Shown here: positions 1 to 55,736 of the stretch, one piece after another
How the letters are laid out: each line of letters starts with the position of its first letter
Numbering within the stretch: position 1 is the first letter of the stretch
DNA from: Streptomyces mesophilus
GTDB lineage: Bacteria > Actinomycetota > Actinomycetes > Streptomycetales > Streptomycetaceae
Reading direction: 5' to 3'
Assembly (NCBI RefSeq): GCF_011044995.1
Contig: NZ_JAAKZW010000014.1
Location: 1-64,000, forward strand
Length of the DNA stretch: 64,000 nucleotides
The notes under the pieces: model-generated
What the model was told of the DNA's origin: nothing
The model's database searches: none
Seen by the model: only the letters and a program-made list of their open reading frames with translations
Position numbers and translations under genes: made by a program

Positions 1-372
1 CACCCTCTCCGCGCACCCGCCCTCGCTCTCCTGGGCCGAGGCCCGGGCCTTACTCCGTCCGGCGACGACTACCTCTGCGGTCTTCTCCTGGCGGCCAATG
101 CAGCTTCCGTCACGCCGAGTTGGAAAGCCTCGCTGGCCGACGCCCTCATCGAAGCCCATGAACACACCACCCTCGTCTCCGCCTCCCTCCTCGCCCACGC
201 CGCCACCGGCCACTGCATTCCCCAGGTCCATGACCTGCTGAGCGCCACGGCGGCTTCGGACGAGGTCCCGCCCGGCCCGCTCGCCGCCCTCCTCGCCGTG
301 GGCCACAGCTCGGGCTCGGACCTGCTGCACGGACTGTGCGCGGGGGCGAGGCTGCTGACACGGCCGGACTGA
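1..372 (+). CDS. DUF2877 family protein, 3' part
   Basis: The first 372 bases are open in frame 1 and end at TGA; the start lies before the window. The readable 123 residues contain LGRGPGLTPSGDDYLCG near residues 10-27 and GHSSGSDLLHGL near residues 101-112, the two conserved stretches I associate with DUF2877. That family has no established reaction; relatives are often found with purine or carboxylate catabolism genes. Nothing indicates membrane association. The gene is convergent with the LacI-type regulator, whose stop lies 20 bases further on. Family membership is fairly secure; function is unknown. Confidence 0.75.
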   Translation, partial: HPLRAPALALLGRGPGLTPSGDDYLCGLLLAANAASVTPSWKASLADALIEAHEHTTLVSASLLAHAATGHCIPQVHDLLSATAASDEVPPGPLAALLAVGHSSGSDLLHGLCAGARLLTRPD

Positions 373-49011: not shown

Positions 49012-49959
49012 ATGGCCACTGCCTCCGCCTCCCGCACCCGTATCCGCACCTCCACCACCGCGCCCGCGTCCACGCCTCGGCGCACGCTCGACTGGCGGCT
49101 CCGCTTCGCGGTGCTCTCCTTGATCTGGGGCTTCAGCTTTCTGCTCATCAAGGTGGGTACGCATGGCTACGCACCCTTCCAAGTGACCTTCGGACGGCTC
49201 CTGTTCGGCACCCTGGTCCTCGCCGCGGCGATGCTGGTGCGGCGCGAGGGGCTGCCGCGCGGGTGGCGCACCTGGGGACATCTGACGGTGGCGGCGTTCT
49301 TCCTCAACGCCCTGCCGTTCTCGCTCTTCGCCTACTCGGAACTCACGATCCCGTCGACGCTCGCCGGCATCTGCAACGCGACCTCGCCGCTGTGGGGCAT
49401 GGCCCTGTCGATGGTCGCGCTCTCCGAGGACCGGCCGACCCGCCGGCGCGTGGCGGGCCTGGGTCTCGGCTTCCTCGGCGTCCTGACGGTGCTTGGCGCC
49501 TGGCAGGGCTTCCAGGGCATCGACGCGGCGGGCACGGCCATGGCGCTCGCCGCTTCCCTGAGCTATCCGATCGGCTGGATCTACGTGCGGCGCACACTCG
49601 CGGGCAGCACCGAGTCGCATCTGTCCCTCATGGGTGCACAGCTGTTGCTCGCCACCGCGCAACTGGCCTTCGTCACCCCGCTGTTCACCTCCATGCCGAC
49701 CGGCTTCCCGGTCCTGCCACTGCTCGCCGTCATCGCGCTCGGCGCCCTCGGAACCGGCCTCGCGGTGCTTCTCCAGTACGGCCTCGTGGCGGAGATCGGC
49801 CCCACGACCGCGCAGATGGTCACGTACTTCATCCCGGTCATCGCCACCGCCGCGGGCGTGGCCCTGCTCGGCGAATCCCTGTCGTGGTCGACACCGGTGG
49901 GTGCGGCGATCGTCCTGGCGGGCGCGGCTCTGACCCAGTCGCGGGCCAAGGCGGCCTAG
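49012..49959 (+). CDS. EamA-family (DMT) transporter
   Basis: Predicted 315-residue membrane protein with ten membrane spans and two EamA domains, beginning after a Thr/Arg-rich leader with FAVLSLIWGFSFLLIKVGTHG and ending GVALLGESLSWSTPVGAAIVLAGAAL. DMT exporters move amino acids, metabolites or drugs. The ATG at 49012 is near AGAGGT; the ATG/GTG options upstream overlap the operator. It is divergent from the LysR gene, likely its regulator. Confidence 0.9.
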   Translation: MATASASRTRIRTSTTAPASTPRRTLDWRLRFAVLSLIWGFSFLLIKVGTHGYAPFQVTFGRLLFGTLVLAAAMLVRREGLPRGWRTWGHLTVAAFFLNALPFSLFAYSELTIPSTLAGICNATSPLWGMALSMVALSEDRPTRRRVAGLGLGFLGVLTVLGAWQGFQGIDAAGTAMALAASLSYPIGWIYVRRTLAGSTESHLSLMGAQLLLATAQLAFVTPLFTSMPTGFPVLPLLAVIALGALGTGLAVLLQYGLVAEIGPTTAQMVTYFIPVIATAAGVALLGESLSWSTPVGAAIVLAGAALTQSRAKAA

Positions 49960-50705: not shown

Positions 50706-50731
50706 GTCACCGGAGACAGCCGGTCTAGGTC
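50697..50731 (+). repeat. 12-bp direct repeat carrying both convergent stop codons
   Basis: CCGGTCTAGGTC at 50697-50708 contains the TAG of the SUKH-type gene; the identical sequence at 50720-50731 contains the stop of the convergent MocR-type gene. Probably a small duplication. Confidence 0.7.
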
Positions 50732-52074
50732 GCCAGGGTCCGGCCCGCTCCGCCCCGCCCGCCCAGCACGGCATACGCGACGGCGTCGGCCAGCGGCTCG
50801 ATGTCGGACTCGGCCAGCGGCGACACCGTGATCCGCATCCCGGGCGCCGCCCCGATCCGGAACCTCGCCCCGGGCGCCACCGCCCACCCGGCGTGCAACA
50901 GCCGGGACACCGCGCCGGTTTCGTCCGGGACCGGCACCCATACGTTCAGGCCGCTGCGCCCCGTCGCCGCGACACCCCGCCGCCCCAGCGCGGCGATCAG
51001 GGCGTCGCGGCGACGCGCATAGGTACGCGCCACGTCCACGGGCACCACCGCACCGGAAGCCCACAGTTCGACGACCGCGCGCTGCACGATCCGGCTCACC
51101 CAGCCCGGTCCGAGCCGCTGCCGGCCCTGCACCCGGTCCACGGTGACCGCGTCGCCGGTCAGGACGGCGAGCCGCAGATCGGGCCCGTACGCCTTGGCCA
51201 CCGAGCGCACCAGCGCCCAACTCCCCTTGCCGGTGGCCAGAGGATGCAACGGCAGGTCGACGATGCCGTGCCCGTGGTCGTCCTCGATCAGCAGCACCGA
51301 TGGGTGCTTCCTGAGGACCGCCCGCAGCGCCCGCGCACGCGAGGCGGTGACCGCGGCGCCCGTGGGGTTCTGCGCCCGGTCCGTGACGATCACGGCACGG
51401 GCACCTTCGCTCAACGCCCGGTCGACCGCGGCCGGCTCGGGCCCTTCGTCGTCCACGGCGATGGCGACGGCGCGCAGCCCGAGCGCCGGGATCAGATCGA
51501 GCAGCGCACCCCAGCCCGGATCCTCCACCGCGACCGCGTCACCCGGCCGCAGGTGCGCGGCCAGGATCCGCTCGATGGCGTCGAGCGAGCCCGACGTGAC
51601 GGCGACAGGCCCGCCCGGAATCCCGTCGGCGTCGAACGCGGCCCGGGCGAGCGCGCCCAGGTCCGGGTCCACCGCGGCCTCGGCGTACATGACCGGCTGC
51701 CGGTCGCTGCGCGCGGCCGCCGCGGCGAACGCCCCGGTGAGGGAAGGCAGCAGCGCGGGATCGGGATTGCCGAGCGAGACATCCCGTACGCCTTCGGGCG
51801 CTTCGACCCGGATCGCGTCGCGCGCGGTGCTCGCGGGCCGCGAACGGACCCGGCTGCCGCGCCTGCCCGCCGTCTCGATCACTCCCCGCTCACGCAGGGT
51901 GCGATACGCCGACGCGACCGTATTCGGATTGACCCCCAGCTCCAGGGCCAACTCCCGCATGGGCGGCAGCACTTGCCCGGGCTCCAGGTCTCCCCTGCCC
52001 ACCGCGCCCTCGACGCTGGCCGCAATCTCTGCTGCGCGTCGGCCTTCGATCCGATATCCTCCTAGCACAAACAT
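50725..52074 (-). CDS. MocR-type GntR/aminotransferase regulator (PdxR-like)
   Basis: Predicted 449-residue fusion of a GntR winged helix (residues about 10-80: LPPMRELALELGVNPNTVASAYRTLRERG) and a class I aminotransferase-like domain with LGNPDPALLP, VTSGSLDAIERIL, TDRAQNPTGAAVT and a PLP-lysine in SVAKAYGPDLRL. MocR proteins sense pyridoxal phosphate and often activate or repress vitamin B6 genes. It is divergent from a PLP-oxidase-fold gene only 29 bases away, suggesting direct control of that gene. Confidence 0.9.
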   Translation of the reverse strand: MFVLGGYRIEGRRAAEIAASVEGAVGRGDLEPGQVLPPMRELALELGVNPNTVASAYRTLRERGVIETAGRRGSRVRSRPASTARDAIRVEAPEGVRDVSLGNPDPALLPSLTGAFAAAAARSDRQPVMYAEAAVDPDLGALARAAFDADGIPGGPVAVTSGSLDAIERILAAHLRPGDAVAVEDPGWGALLDLIPALGLRAVAIAVDDEGPEPAAVDRALSEGARAVIVTDRAQNPTGAAVTASRARALRAVLRKHPSVLLIEDDHGHGIVDLPLHPLATGKGSWALVRSVAKAYGPDLRLAVLTGDAVTVDRVQGRQRLGPGWVSRIVQRAVVELWASGAVVPVDVARTYARRRDALIAALGRRGVAATGRSGLNVWVPVPDETGAVSRLLHAGWAVAPGARFRIGAAPGMRITVSPLAESDIEPLADAVAYAVLGGRGGAGRTLAT

Positions 52075-52103
52075 GAGTATGCACTAATGCAATGGAGATC
52101 GCA

Positions 52104-52796
52104 ATGAGCGTTGCGCCGGACACCACGGAGCCGACCACCACCCCGGACTCGTATGCACCGACGGAGCGCACCGTCCCCACCCGCTCCAAGGAGCGCGCGC
52201 ACTACGACCGGGAATTGGTGCATTCGATACTCGACGAGACCTACCTCTGCCACATGGGCTTCGTCCGCGACGGCGCCCCGGTGGTGCTGCCGACGCTGTA
52301 CGCGCGGGTCGGCGAGCGGCTCTACGTGCACGGGTCGACCGGCTCGCGCCCGCTGCGGATGGCGGGCCAGGCCGACCCGGGCCTGTCCGTCTGTCTGACG
52401 GTGACGCATGTGGACGGCCTCGTGCTCGCCCGCTCGGCGTTCCACCACTCGATCAACTACCGCTCCGTCGTGGTGCACGGCACCGCCCACCAGGTCACCG
52501 ATCCGCAGGAGAAGCGACTGGCCCTGGACGCCATCGTCGACCAGGTCGTGGCCGGCCGGGCCGCGGACTCCCGCCCGGCCGACGCCAAGGAGCTGGCCGC
52601 CACCGCGGTGCTCCGCGTCGACCTGGCCGAGGTCTCCGCGAAGATCCGCACCGGCGGCCCCAACGACGAGCCCAAGGACATGGAGCTCCCCCACTGGGCG
52701 GGCGTGGTGCCGGTGGCCCGCACGTACGGCGCGCCGATTCCGTCCGATGACCTGGAGCCGGGGGTCGAACTGCCGGAGTATCTGCGCGGTTTGTGA
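52104..52796 (+). CDS. Pyridoxamine 5'-phosphate oxidase-family protein
   Basis: Predicted 230-residue flavin-binding split-barrel protein. HSILDETYLCHMGFVRDGAP and VVLPTLYARVGERLYVHG match the FMN-binding PPOX type with a conserved His; RSVVVHGTAHQVTDPQEK and the helical part follow. It may oxidise pyridoxamine phosphate or act as a flavin reductase-like protein. The ATG at 52104 follows GGAG at proper spacing; an in-frame ATG lies 4 codons earlier. A strong terminator follows. The divergent MocR-type gene suggests B6-linked regulation. Confidence 0.88.
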   Translation: MSVAPDTTEPTTTPDSYAPTERTVPTRSKERAHYDRELVHSILDETYLCHMGFVRDGAPVVLPTLYARVGERLYVHGSTGSRPLRMAGQADPGLSVCLTVTHVDGLVLARSAFHHSINYRSVVVHGTAHQVTDPQEKRLALDAIVDQVVAGRAADSRPADAKELAATAVLRVDLAEVSAKIRTGGPNDEPKDMELPHWAGVVPVARTYGAPIPSDDLEPGVELPEYLRGL

Positions 52797-52822
52797 GCGG
52801 ACGCATCACCCGAACGTGAAGC

Positions 52823-52854
52823 AAGGGCCGCCCTCTCGTCGAGGGCGGCCCTTT
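52823..52854. terminator. Terminator after the PPOX gene (bidirectional)
   Basis: AAGGGCCGCCCTC (52823-52835) pairs with GAGGGCGGCCCTT (52841-52853) over 13 bp with loop TCGTC, followed by T's. It also follows the convergent EamA gene at 52882. Confidence 0.85.
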
Positions 52855-52888
52855 CGCTATGTATCGAGGGCGGCCGTTTCGCTATGTA
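52839..52888 (+). repeat. 25-bp tandem duplication at the terminator and EamA stop
   Basis: TCGAGGGCGGCCC... spans 52839-52863 and is repeated at 52864-52888 with one mismatch (C to G). The first copy holds the right arm of the terminator and the second contains the TAG stop of the minus-strand EamA gene, so the last codons of that gene are part of the duplicated unit. Confidence 0.8.
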
Positions 52889-53868
52889 CGGACAGCGCTC
52901 AGTGATGTACGAGCAGCGGTCCGCGTCTCCGCCACCGCGAGCCCCGCCAGCGCGAGCAGCATCAGCAAGGTGCCCACCACCGTCGCCGCGGTCAGATGCT
53001 CACCGAACGCGAGCACCGCGAGGATGGCCGCACTGACCGGTTCGAGCAGCATGATCACGGAGACGGTGGCCGAGCGGACCGCGGCCGCCCCCGCGAAGTA
53101 CAGGGCGTAGGCCAGCGCGGTCGGCACGGCCGCGACGTACAGCATCAGGCCGAGGATCCGGCCGAGTTGATCGGTGTGGGGCAGCAGCCCTTCGACCGCC
53201 GCGAACGGCAGCAGGCACAGTGCGGCGATCGCGAAGGTCCACACGGTCGTGGTGTGGGTGTCGGCGCCCGAACCGTCCCTGCCCCACCAGCGGGTGAGCA
53301 GAGTCATCACGGCGTACCCGGCAGCGGACCCGATCGCGAGCAGGACGCCGGCCGGATCGACCTCGCCCGGACCGCCGCCACCCTCGCCGAAGACGAGCAC
53401 GACCAGGCCCGCGAGTGCACCGGCGACGGCCAGTACGCCGCCGATTCCGAGGCGTTCACCGAGCAGCAGCCTGGCCCCCAGCGCGATCAGGACGGGGCCC
53501 GCACCGAGCGTGACCACCGTGCCGACGGCCAGACCGGTGGCCGATACGGCGGCGAAGTACGCGGTCTGGAAGACGGCGAGGGCGACACCGAGCGCGATCA
53601 TCCGCCCCGGCCGCACCTTGGCACGCGCCCGACCGCCGCGGCGCCGCAGCAGCCCGGCCACGAGCAGCAGCACGAGGCCGCCGGCGCAGCGCCAGAACGA
53701 CAGGGCGATGGGCCGCAGTTCGCTGGACTGGAACACCAGGAGCGCGGCGGCTCCCGCGGTACCCCAGGCGACACCGGCGACGATCAGATAGAGCAGGCCG
53801 CGTCCGACGGACAGGGCGGGGGAACCAGGGGCGACGACGGCACCCTGGGTGGAAACAGCATTCGACAC
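52882..53868 (-). CDS. EamA-family (DMT) transporter, downstream copy
   Basis: Predicted 328-residue ten-span membrane protein. [22 protein letters not shown] opens the first EamA domain and [21 protein letters not shown] closes the second. The GTG start at 53868 follows GGAGAG. The 158 bases upstream contain a 13-codon ORF and two hairpins, suggesting that expression is controlled by translation of that leader. It probably exports an amino acid or related metabolite; the leader composition (Leu, Pro, Ala) may hint at the effector. It is the second of two EamA genes in the same direction. Confidence 0.88.
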
Positions 53869-53886
53869 GAGGCTCTCCGCAAAGGA

Positions 53887-53943
53887 CAGACGAAAGGGAC
53901 TGTCGTCTGCGGGCAGCCGTCACCGGCCCGGGAACTCCCGGGC
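53887..53943 (-). promoter_or_regulatory. Leader hairpins before the EamA gene (putative attenuator)
   Basis: GCCCGGGA-AC-TCCCGGGC at 53926-53943 forms an 8-bp stem with a 2-base loop, a shape likely to stop or pause RNA polymerase or the ribosome. CAGACGA (53887-53893) and TCGTCTG (53903-53909) form a second hairpin just before the GGAGAG of the EamA gene. The GC run CCGCA...TGCGG flanks it and could extend the stem. Confidence 0.6.
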
Positions 53944-53974
53944 AGATTTCGGTGGTTGACTCCGACCGCCCGCG

Positions 53975-54016
53975 CTAGGCGGCAGGAGGCGGAAGGACAA
54001 GCGCTCGTGCGTGCAT
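53975..54016 (-). CDS. Leader peptide MHARALVLPPPAA
   Basis: A complete 14-codon ORF (13 residues plus TAG) on the minus strand. AGGGTGG lies 7-10 bases before the ATG. The ATG is 10 bases after the stop of the upstream EamA gene, so ribosomes could re-initiate. Three consecutive prolines near the end form a motif known to stall ribosomes unless EF-P assists. Hairpins follow before the downstream EamA gene. I infer a regulatory leader, similar in layout to amino-acid attenuators. Confidence 0.55.
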   Translation of the reverse strand: MHARALVLPPPAA

Positions 54017-54026
54017 GATCGCCACC

Positions 54027-55031
54027 CTACGCTTCGGCCCGGCTCACGGACAATGCCGTTTCGTCCTGTGGACCGCCGCTCGCGACGGGCTCGGGCGCCG
54101 CCTTCACAGGAGTGGCGGACTGGGCGATGAACGCGCCGATCAGAACGACCGCACCGCCGATGATCTGGGGCGCGGACAGATGCTCGCCGAGCAGGAACCA
54201 GGCCAGTACGGTCGCGACGACCGCCTCGAGGTAGGCGACGACTCCGGCCACCTGCGGCGAGAGCCTGCGTACGGAGAGCAGACCCGTGCCGTACGCGAGC
54301 ACCGTGGCGATCAGCACCACCCAGCCGAGCAGCAACCACCCCGACACCGCGGTGCCGTCCATGTCCGCAGTGCCCGAGAGCACCGACCAGTCCATCTCCC
54401 ATGGGCGGGCGATCACCGTCAGGATCAGAGCGCCGATCAGCATGCCGTACGCGATGACGCCCAGCGGATCCGGAGCCTGTTCGCCCGAGTCGCTGCCGTG
54501 GTCGCCGAGGATGAAGTAGCCGGCCTGGCACACCGCGGCGCCAAGACCGAGGAGCACGCCGATCGCGTCGAAGCTCAGACCTGCCCAGACCTCGACCACA
54601 CAGGCGAGCCCGCCGACCGCGAGCACCACACCGACCGCCGCGGCCCGCGTGACGTGCCGGCGCTGGACGAAACGGATCCAGACGAGCACGAGCGCCGGCC
54701 CCAGGTACTCGATGAGCAGGGCCACGCCTACGGGGATACGGGAGATCGCCGCGAAGTAGCAGGCCTGGACGCCCGCGACGGCGAACAGGCCGAAACCGGC
54801 GAGCAACGCGGGCCTGCGCACCAGCAGTTCGCGATGGCGCCAGGCCACCGGCAGCAGCACAAGCGCCGCACCCGCCACCCGCAGCCAGACCACATGCAGC
54901 GGGTCGAGCCCTGCCGTGATGAGCGGCTTCGCCGCCACGCCGGAGCCGCCGAACGCCAGCGCCGACACCAGAGCCAGCGTCAGTCCGACGCTGCGGCCCC
55001 GGTCCCCTTGAATCCCCTTGAACGTAGACAC
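54027..55031 (-). CDS. EamA-family (DMT) transporter, upstream copy
   Basis: Predicted 334-residue ten-span membrane protein starting at GTG (MSTFKGIQGD). The two EamA repeats are visible (GLTLALVSALAFGGSGVAAKPL and GWLLLGWVVLIATVLAYGTGLL). It resembles threonine/homoserine-type RhtA exporters as well as drug exporters; specificity cannot be set. Its stop lies 10 bases before the leader ORF of the next EamA gene, so the two are probably co-transcribed, with the leader regulating only the second. Confidence 0.88.
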   Translation of the reverse strand: MSTFKGIQGDRGRSVGLTLALVSALAFGGSGVAAKPLITAGLDPLHVVWLRVAGAALVLLPVAWRHRELLVRRPALLAGFGLFAVAGVQACYFAAISRIPVGVALLIEYLGPALVLVWIRFVQRRHVTRAAAVGVVLAVGGLACVVEVWAGLSFDAIGVLLGLGAAVCQAGYFILGDHGSDSGEQAPDPLGVIAYGMLIGALILTVIARPWEMDWSVLSGTADMDGTAVSGWLLLGWVVLIATVLAYGTGLLSVRRLSPQVAGVVAYLEAVVATVLAWFLLGEHLSAPQIIGGAVVLIGAFIAQSATPVKAAPEPVASGGPQDETALSVSRAEA

Positions 55032-55166
55032 GCGGCCATGATGACAGGCGACGTCATGAGCGTCACCCCCGATACCCCTGACATCTCGGAAAGCGAGACG
55101 GCGCCCGGGCGCGGTCCACGCGACGACCGGGCACAGTTCGCCCGACGTCCACCCACTGCGCCCCCG

Positions 55167-55736
55167 TCAGCCCGTCAAGGGCTCACCGAACCCCGCGTCG
55201 ATGCGCTCCACCAGCGCCCGCGGATCCACACCGGAGCGACGCAGGATCTGCACCGCGCGGCTTTCGGCATCCAGAGCGAGGGCCGCGAGCACATCGATCC
55301 CGTCGGCGGACCTCCGGCCGCCCTCCCGGGCGCGCGCCTGCGCCAGCTCCATCGCACTCAGCGCGGAGGGCGACCAGCCGGCCGGTTCCCGCGCCCCTCG
55401 TTCCCGTACGACCGGAACGGCGCCCGAATCCTCGACCGTGCCCTGCCAGCGCAGCCCGTACCCGATGGAACGCTGCACCAGGAGGCCGAGCAGCCGGGCC
55501 ACGCGCGCGCCGTCTCCGAATACCGCGCGCACCGCGGGGTCGGACTCGAGCAGGGAGTGCAGCAGATGGGCGGTATCCAGCTGGCCGTCGCCGCCGCGCA
55601 GGGCCCGTCGGCGGGCGCCCGCGATCACCGACTGCAGCTCGGCGTCGAGCTCGCCGTCGGGTTCGGTCCGTGGCAGGCGCGGGTGCGGAAGTCCTTGATC
55701 CGCATCCGGCCAGGTGGGGCTGTGCACACCTGCCAC
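55167..55736 (-). CDS. Clp N-terminal (Clp_N) domain protein
   Basis: Predicted 189-residue protein. ELQSVIAGARRRALRGGDGQLDTAHLLHSLLES and LAQARAREGGRRSADGIDVLAALALDAES, each split over the two halves, are two Clp_N-type repeats. It lacks the AAA+ domains and any signal. Stand-alone Clp_N proteins in actinobacteria, such as ClpC-like adaptor or stress proteins, are thought to bind substrates or modulate Clp proteases. No Clp gene is nearby. Confidence 0.85.
   Translation of the reverse strand: MAGVHSPTWPDADQGLPHPRLPRTEPDGELDAELQSVIAGARRRALRGGDGQLDTAHLLHSLLESDPAVRAVFGDGARVARLLGLLVQRSIGYGLRWQGTVEDSGAVPVVRERGAREPAGWSPSALSAMELAQARAREGGRRSADGIDVLAALALDAESRAVQILRRSGVDPRALVERIDAGFGEPLTG

Follow-up and report, generated by a model that had tools for sequence, protein, structure and literature searches.

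The spacer between two adjacent exporter genes of Streptomyces mesophilus raises a question: Why does an open reading frame (ORF) of only 42 nt, ending in a run of prolines, stand directly before the second exporter, and could its translation decide whether that exporter is made? The original prediction held that translation of this leader controls the downstream gene, perhaps by sensing the supply of proline or branched-chain amino acids, the status of EF-P or an antibiotic. The answer we favour, with a probability of about 0.7, is that a polyproline leader peptide operates a translational attenuator. Computed support for it comes from conservation, selection at the amino-acid level, promoter-like elements, co-variation between the leader and the exporter start, and folding that depends on position.

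Layout of the locus

In the window, by which we mean the whole stretch of 64,000 nt that was analysed, the leader ORF encodes MHARALVLPPPAA and a stop codon (53975..54016, minus strand). It begins, as had been predicted, 10 bases 3' of the EamA-1 stop codon (54027-54029), running from 54016 to 53975 on the minus strand. The claim that two EamA exporters flank it is likewise borne out, since both match PF00892: EamA-1 lies upstream (54027..55031, minus strand; E=1.6e-32) and holds the leader promoter in its 3' end, while EamA-2, the presumed regulated exporter of 328 aa, lies downstream (52882..53868, minus strand; E=1.2e-28). NCBIfam models match EamA-2 only below threshold (TIGR00950 with 111.4 bits, the cut-off being 230.2), and a search by sequence found no solved structure for it. 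The translation start region of EamA-2, TGCGGAGAGCCTCGTGTCGAATGCT (53857..53881, minus strand), contains the Shine-Dalgarno (SD) sequence GGAG at 53875-53878 and the GTG start codon at 53866-53868.

Folding of the minus strand also recovers the two hairpins that had been placed between the leader and EamA-2. The middle hairpin, GCCCGGGAGTTCCCGGGC (53926..53943, minus strand), has in many loci a counterpart in a G+C-rich stem of variable sequence at the same position, as judged by eye; the second hairpin, longer and 3' of the first, includes the EamA-2 SD in the window. Two further elements of the same strand are designated here segment 1, GCGGGC, which directly follows the leader stop (53968..53973) and can pair with the last codons of the leader or with segment 2, and segment 2, GCTGCCCGC followed by AGA (53909..53917), which can pair with segment 1 or with the flank of the SD. 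No Rfam covariance model matched positions 52700-55300 at E up to 1, and no terminator-like site with a U run, such as forms the alternative hairpin in transcription attenuators of amino-acid operons, was found in 53600-54300, other loci being checked by eye.

A third EamA gene occurs nearby on the plus strand (window 49108-49935), without such a leader. The exporter pair is also adjoined by a divergent pair, consisting of a MocR-like regulator (50725-52074, minus strand), for which the best NCBIfam match is PtsJ, below cut-off, and a pyridoxamine-phosphate-oxidase-like protein (52092-52796, plus strand); this arrangement possibly indicates a link with vitamin B6.

Distribution of the leader and selection on its peptide

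A set of 246 Streptomyces genomes yielded 194 matches in a DNA search, and the leader was present in all 49 other loci first taken (L005-L053), which were chosen by DNA similarity. A less biased sample came from a search with the EamA-2 protein, which matched 240 of the 246 genomes at E up to 0.001; among the matches listed, 40 orthologues were picked blind to the presence of a leader, half of them near the weak end of the list. The leader ORF is in place in all 40 (L203 and L205 having been scored by eye), with PPP in 32 and with SPP or APP in eight. The original prediction had made conservation of the ORF and of its PPP in relatives a decisive check: the ORF and Pro-Pro are conserved throughout (40/40), whereas PPP is not strictly invariant (8/40 SPP or APP), so that what stays constant is the Pro-Pro that closes the triplet. 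Beyond the genus, EamA-2 was matched in 39 of 40 genomes from 16 other genera of the family, and every one of the 30 loci taken from them has the leader (28 PPP, two SPP).

Outside the family, 33 of 40 genomes of the class were matched and 30 loci taken. The best seven of these 30 (L278-L284, 39 to 53% identity) all carry a leader with PPP; the remaining 23 comprise seven with a short ORF ending in Pro-Pro (by eye), one that is chance-like and 15 with none. The remoter matches are probably members of other EamA families. Upstream of some of these remoter EamA genes (L287, L288, L290, L291, L295, L297 and L298) stand short ORFs, among them MIHQTRLFVTPPPRS, MAYWTAQLGPPRS and MNYYWHKVLPPLHA; Pro-Pro leaders of EamA genes may form a wider class. 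Within the genome of the window, 18 other EamA genes were examined (30 loci being taken of 39 matches), and only EamA-2 has this leader. A short ORF at locus L317, ending in VSPPR and a stop and lacking the promoter form, is probably due to chance.

In the short ORF before EamA-2, a further one to three codons separate Pro-Pro from the stop, most often giving VLPPPAA, and a DNA pattern for this leader end gave at least 118 matches in public genomes. Of these, 112 lie within 700 nt upstream of EamA-2; three others are near the edge of their locus, two are chance matches (by eye) and in one the exporter was not found. Could the ORF then be a chance product of a G+C-rich spacer, in which Pro, Ala and Arg codons are common? 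The DNA pattern for VLPPPAA and its stop did match two genomes outside the family, and its reversed control matched about ten genomes. Neither of the two outside matches is leader-like by eye, however, 25 of the 27 matched genomes (among 394 of the class scanned) are Streptomyces, and the ORF recurs in 40/40 and 30/30 orthologous loci. We regard a chance origin as having next to no probability, and conservation in unselected orthologues rules it out.

Codon usage was examined in 126 leaders, representing 78 distinct peptides of 10-16 aa the lengths of which differ by whole codons. The 118 pattern matches were kept out of these statistics because the pattern itself fixes some leader bases. The collecting script required PP, so that the constancy of PP rests on the 40 unselected orthologues and not on this set; one of 126 loci (L045, LPPPTAG) was left out. 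Of the 126 leaders, 115 have PPP and 11 have Ser or Ala in place of the first Pro; CCT, CCG and CCC all serve as codons for the second and third. Upstream of the triplet, position -2 is Val in 114 leaders (GTT 46, GTG 28, GTC 27, GTA 13), and Val or Ile in 123; position -1 is Leu in 113 (CTT 72, CTG 21, CTC 18, TTG 2), with Ser in five, Thr in four and Val in four. Variation thus falls mainly on the third positions of codons, which argues that selection acts on amino acids, and from these sequences the leader peptide seems to be under selection.

A few loci depart from this regularity. The script found no leader in six of 168 loci (L072, L092, L097, L101, L105 and L115). In Streptomyces viridochromogenes DSM 40736 (L072) the leader MSSNALVLPPPAA is kept, EamA-2 was not found within 700 nt downstream, a TAGGGT-like hexamer is missing and segment 2 is altered; it looks like a leader in decay after loss of the exporter, the changes in promoter and segment 2 being what a leader without its gene would show. 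In Streptomyces calvus T3018 (L092) and Streptomyces atratus JCM 3386 (L115), which are two of the 112 pattern matches upstream of EamA-2, the ATG is lost while VLPPPAA with its stop and EamA-2 are kept. These may be natural losses of the start codon or sequencing errors, and they speak against a strict need for translation in those two loci. Separately, in several genomes (G001, G014, G049, G187, G201 and others) a single TGA falls within the match to EamA-2, which could reflect overrun of the alignment or broken genes.

Leader transcript, RNA pairing and ribosome position

In the mechanism proposed, a promoter within the end of EamA-1 would make an mRNA beginning at or near the leader ATG. 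With the leader read without a pause, or left unread, its RNA would pair with the SD, the start codon and the first codons of EamA-2; in an alternative off state, segment 2 would pair with the flank of the SD, and in either case the exporter would not be translated. A ribosome that stalls while its P site is occupied by the second conserved Pro and its A site by the third would cover most of the leader, including exactly the codons that would otherwise pair with segment 1. GCGGGC of segment 1 would then be free for GCCCGC of segment 2, and the exporter start would open more easily.

The first step concerns the promoter. A -35 element, TTGTCC (54048..54053, minus strand), lies within the 3' end of EamA-1, and the motif recurs before other leaders; 18 nt from it follows a -10 element, TAGGGT (54024..54029, minus strand), the first bases of which are the TAG stop of EamA-1 and which leaves 7 nt to the leader ATG. 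No promoter was called in this stretch of the window by a scan for the strict sigma-70 consensus. The form TTGNNN-16..19-TANNNT is present upstream of 108 of 125 leaders, mostly with a spacer of 18 nt, and GATC immediately precedes the ATG in 88 of 125. TAGGGT agrees with TAnnnT, the -10 consensus of S. lividans, a species for which 17% of transcripts are reported to be leaderless, several attenuator peptides among them (PMC8079986). On account of the spacing from -10 to ATG, of this form of the -10 box and of these leaderless precedents, the mRNA is probably leaderless, starting at or very near the leader ATG. The AGGGTGG proposed in the original prediction as the ribosome-binding site of the leader does not hold up as such, for it overlaps the -10 box TAGGGT, 7 nt before the ATG.

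The leader ORF also has, in its first 30 nt or so, complementarity to the start region of EamA-2; in the window, TGCACGCACGAGCGCTTGTCCTTCCGC of the leader faces GCGGAGAGCCTCGTGTCGAATGC of the start region. Across 125 loci, the mean energy of the duplex between leader and start is -21.70 kcal/mol for native partners, -19.65 for swapped and -12.50 for shuffled leaders, with none of 5000 permutations as low; the native leader lies below its own shuffles in 121 of these loci. The SD caller used for this set preferred CGGAG, and the 125 loci were kept from 162 (28 had no SD found, seven were duplicates and two had no downstream gene). In the 45 loci not picked by the pattern the values were -21.90 and, when swapped, -20.15 kcal/mol (0/5000). 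The test was repeated with a caller lacking that preference, 15 of 77 loci being dropped for want of an SD or a match. It gave -18.58 native, -15.74 swapped and -11.45 shuffled in 29 further Streptomyces loci (0/5000), and -16.65, -14.76 and -11.77, respectively, in 27 loci of other genera (0/5000); in six loci of other families, co-variation of leader and start was not significant (638/5000). These permutations ignore kinship between loci. At the level of single bases, CCA as the first Pro codon accompanies an SD flank of GTGGGAG in L241, L243 and L249, all of one genus, and CCG accompanies GCGGGAG in their relatives L239, L248, L251, L255 and L260; in other CCG leaders, GG(G)AG follows different flanks, among them TCT, GTT and GGT. 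In silico, then, the SD and start of EamA-2 are sequestered in the uninterrupted RNA, with co-variation between the partners, as in a translational attenuator.

GCGGGC after the stop and GCTGCCCGC downstream hardly vary in 49 diverse loci, each column of segment 2 being 90-100% identical in the 49 aligned loci, which come from several genera, and GCGGGC:GCCCGC is the only consensus helix returned by RNAalifold. A nine-pair version of the helix between segments 1 and 2 pairs in 91% of cells, against 32 to 65% when slid. No pair has changed on both sides, and shuffling attains its covariation score in 160 of 500 cases, so that this helix rests on complementarity and invariance. The competing helix between the 3' part of segment 2 and the SD flank is paired in 88% of cells over 122 loci (31-46% when slid) and shows exchanges of A-U and G-C, three of its seven pairs involving the SD core or the preceding base. 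GCTG of segment 2 is invariant although segment 1 does not pair there.

Such constancy, together with the strong complementarity of leader and start, could be taken to mean that the ORF is no sensor at all, and that it is a cis-antisense RNA or a riboswitch-like element, kept for its pairing with the start and perhaps bound by a protein or ligand at GCTGCCCGC, a segment that includes bases often unpaired with segment 1. The two leaders that have lost their ATG and kept the rest would suit this explanation as well. Yet substitutions in the core fall mainly on third positions, the stop is kept and lengths differ by whole codons; moreover, the spacing from -10 to ATG suits leaderless translation, and other families show weak pairing with the start and still retain PPP. 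We consider this explanation improbable, and prefer a translated leader peptide.

The effect of a ribosome on that leader was mimicked by folding the RNA from successive first free bases after the leader stop. By the toeprint rule, in which some 16 nt separate the start of the P-site codon from the leading edge of the ribosome, +4 means that the P site is occupied by the second Pro and the A site by the third; +13 corresponds to the stop codon in the A site. In 118 loci (seven of the 125 being dropped, three without segment 2 and four too long), the segment 1:2 helix forms with a probability of 0.10 when the whole RNA is folded and of 0.36, 0.60 and 0.07 at stop+1, +4 and +7, respectively; at +10 and +13 the probability is 0. 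Among 126 less biased loci, 114 of which have segment 2, the values are 0.09 (full), 0.56 (+1), 0.59 (+4), 0.12 (+7) and 0 (+10); at +4 the helix reaches 0.70 in Streptomyces, 0.31 in other genera (30 loci) and 0.25 in other families (seven loci). Segment 1 pairs downstream at +4 with a probability of 0.79, compared with 0.53 when the downstream sequence is shuffled, and exceeds its own shuffles in 108 of 126 loci. Stall sites described for PPP are PP/P and PPP/K (PMC4176338): a PP/P stall is +4, where the folding switches, whereas PPP/K would be +7, where the model has no switch.

In the window, the segment 1:2 helix attains only 0.48 at +4, and pairing of segment 2 with the SD still stands at 0.70. 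The energy needed to open the start region nevertheless falls there from 17.7 kcal/mol in the full RNA to 7.8 at +4, with 12.2 at +7, 13.5 at +10 and 12.4 at +13. The means over 121 loci are 12.96 (full), 10.11 (+4), 10.37 (+10) and 10.21 kcal/mol (+13), and whereas +4 lies more than 0.5 below +10 in 43 loci, it lies above in 33. The mean unpairedness of the SD is nearly unchanged (0.216 in the full RNA, 0.275 at +4). Because the opening energy falls at +10 and +13 too, taking away the leader accounts for most of the effect, rather than the segment 1:2 helix. In general, the model suggests that occupancy of the leader is the main effect, to which the segment 1:2 helix adds a sharp one in the window and little on average. 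Control of the exporter by leader translation, as originally predicted, stands in part: the leader is conserved and alternative RNA structures depend in silico on the position of the ribosome. The main lock seems, in the modelled structures, to lie beyond the hairpins alone in the pairing of the leader ORF with the exporter start, a pairing that the original prediction had not noticed.

The folding also switches when the ribosome is modelled as paused over either of the first two Pro codons (positions -2 and +1), with segment 1:2 probabilities of 0.55 and 0.56 in the 126 less biased loci and 0.34 and 0.36 in the 118 loci. This would be expected of an attenuator of the amino-acid type, in which low prolyl-tRNA would stall the ribosome at the Pro codons and open the exporter start. 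The second Pro codon is CCT in 66 of 126 leaders, a codon reported to make up 3% of Pro codons in S. venezuelae (PMC8129111), and this too could speak for sensing of the tRNA, even if pairing with the start region can also account for rare third bases. On the other hand, the first Pro is Ser or Ala in 11 of 126 leaders, and the near-constant Val/Ile (123/126) and Leu (113/126) would be needless for a tRNA sensor. Transcription attenuators of amino-acid operons regulate genes for the synthesis, uptake or tRNA loading of the amino acid that their codon run specifies, and the gene here is for an EamA transporter. An exporter would be an odd response to shortage of proline. An attenuator of this kind is therefore unlikely in our judgement, if a little less so than the untranslated element considered above, and stalling at Pro-Pro within the nascent peptide remains the preferred reading.

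The candidate signal and comparison with known systems

What, then, would the stalled ribosome respond to? Stalling at Pro-Pro, the consequent increase in EamA-2 and the identity of the signal are what we infer from the foregoing. In NlpD of E. coli, LPPP, SPPP and TPPP are reported to stall ribosomes weakly (PMC4176338), and Leu, Ser or Thr precedes the triplet in 122 of 126 leaders. Because the residues before the triplet match these weak-stalling contexts, we think that the Pro-Pro stall is conditional, and selected as such; by the same analogy, weak stalling in E. coli with Leu before PPP could instead mean that there is no useful stall. The stall may be strengthened by a compound in the tunnel or the peptidyl-transferase centre, by limited EF-P or by limited prolyl-tRNA. 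Of the candidate signals, we rank a ribosome-targeting compound or a general stress on translation as the likeliest, shortage of EF-P second and shortage of prolyl-tRNA third. The supply of branched-chain amino acids, also raised in the original prediction, is an unlikely signal, for the leader lacks a run of codons for Leu, Ile or Val, and only Val/Ile and usually Leu adjoin the stall site.

Streptomycetes produce many ribosome-targeting compounds, and retention of the leader across the family on one exporter points to a signal that streptomycetes routinely meet. More tentatively, we propose a class of actinomycete leaders ending in (V/I)(L/S/T)-Pro-Pro-Pro, in which a weak stall would be the sensor, for example of a natural ribosome-targeting compound, and would open an EamA exporter, the leader ORF doubling as antisense RNA. 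The inducer of the leader, once found, would hint at the substrate exported by EamA-2, and the leader would offer a simple system for studying Pro-Pro stalling, EF-P and small molecules on the actinobacterial ribosome.

In the drug-inducible translational attenuators of the erm/cat type, a short leader with a stall near its end governs mutually exclusive helices and the release of the SD. They differ from the EamA-2 leader in that their resistance target and drug are known, while the core here is Pro-Pro. The mgtP and mgtL leaders of the Salmonella Mg2+ transporters belong to a different phylum and transporter family. Like the EamA-2 leader, they are proline-rich ORFs before a transporter, mgtP having three consecutive Pro codons through which EF-P is reported to act; they are described as controlling transcription elongation (PMC6460261), whereas the EamA-2 leader pairs with the SD and start, and the window stretch has no terminator-like site. 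Within the same genus, leuL, trpL1 and ilvL of S. lividans are short leader ORFs with hairpins, several of them leaderless, which differ in having codons of the regulated amino acid and in preceding genes for biosynthesis, uptake or tRNA ligases, as reported in a paper the main text of which does not contain the term EamA (PMC8079986). A search of the openly licensed PMC literature for LVLPPPAA or LPPPAA returned unrelated papers only, and the combination of a Pro-Pro stall, a leaderless leader, a leader acting as antisense and an EamA exporter was not found described among the papers listed there.

The nearest parallel is toiL, the upstream ORF of topAI-yjhQ in Escherichia coli, a short ORF that pairs with the downstream ribosome-binding site, which ribosomes stalled on the ORF open in a primarily translational control; it is reported to respond to at least five classes of antibiotics (PMC12121999). 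It differs in host and target, which are E. coli and a toxin-antitoxin system rather than Streptomyces and an exporter, and the EamA-2 leader has in addition the constant Pro-Pro core and a second alternative helix, that of segments 1 and 2. Since toiL and mgtP, as so described, are already known, we judge the leader to be related to known systems rather than of a wholly new kind: by analogy, its mechanism would be nearly that of toiL, and the combination of its parts may be new.
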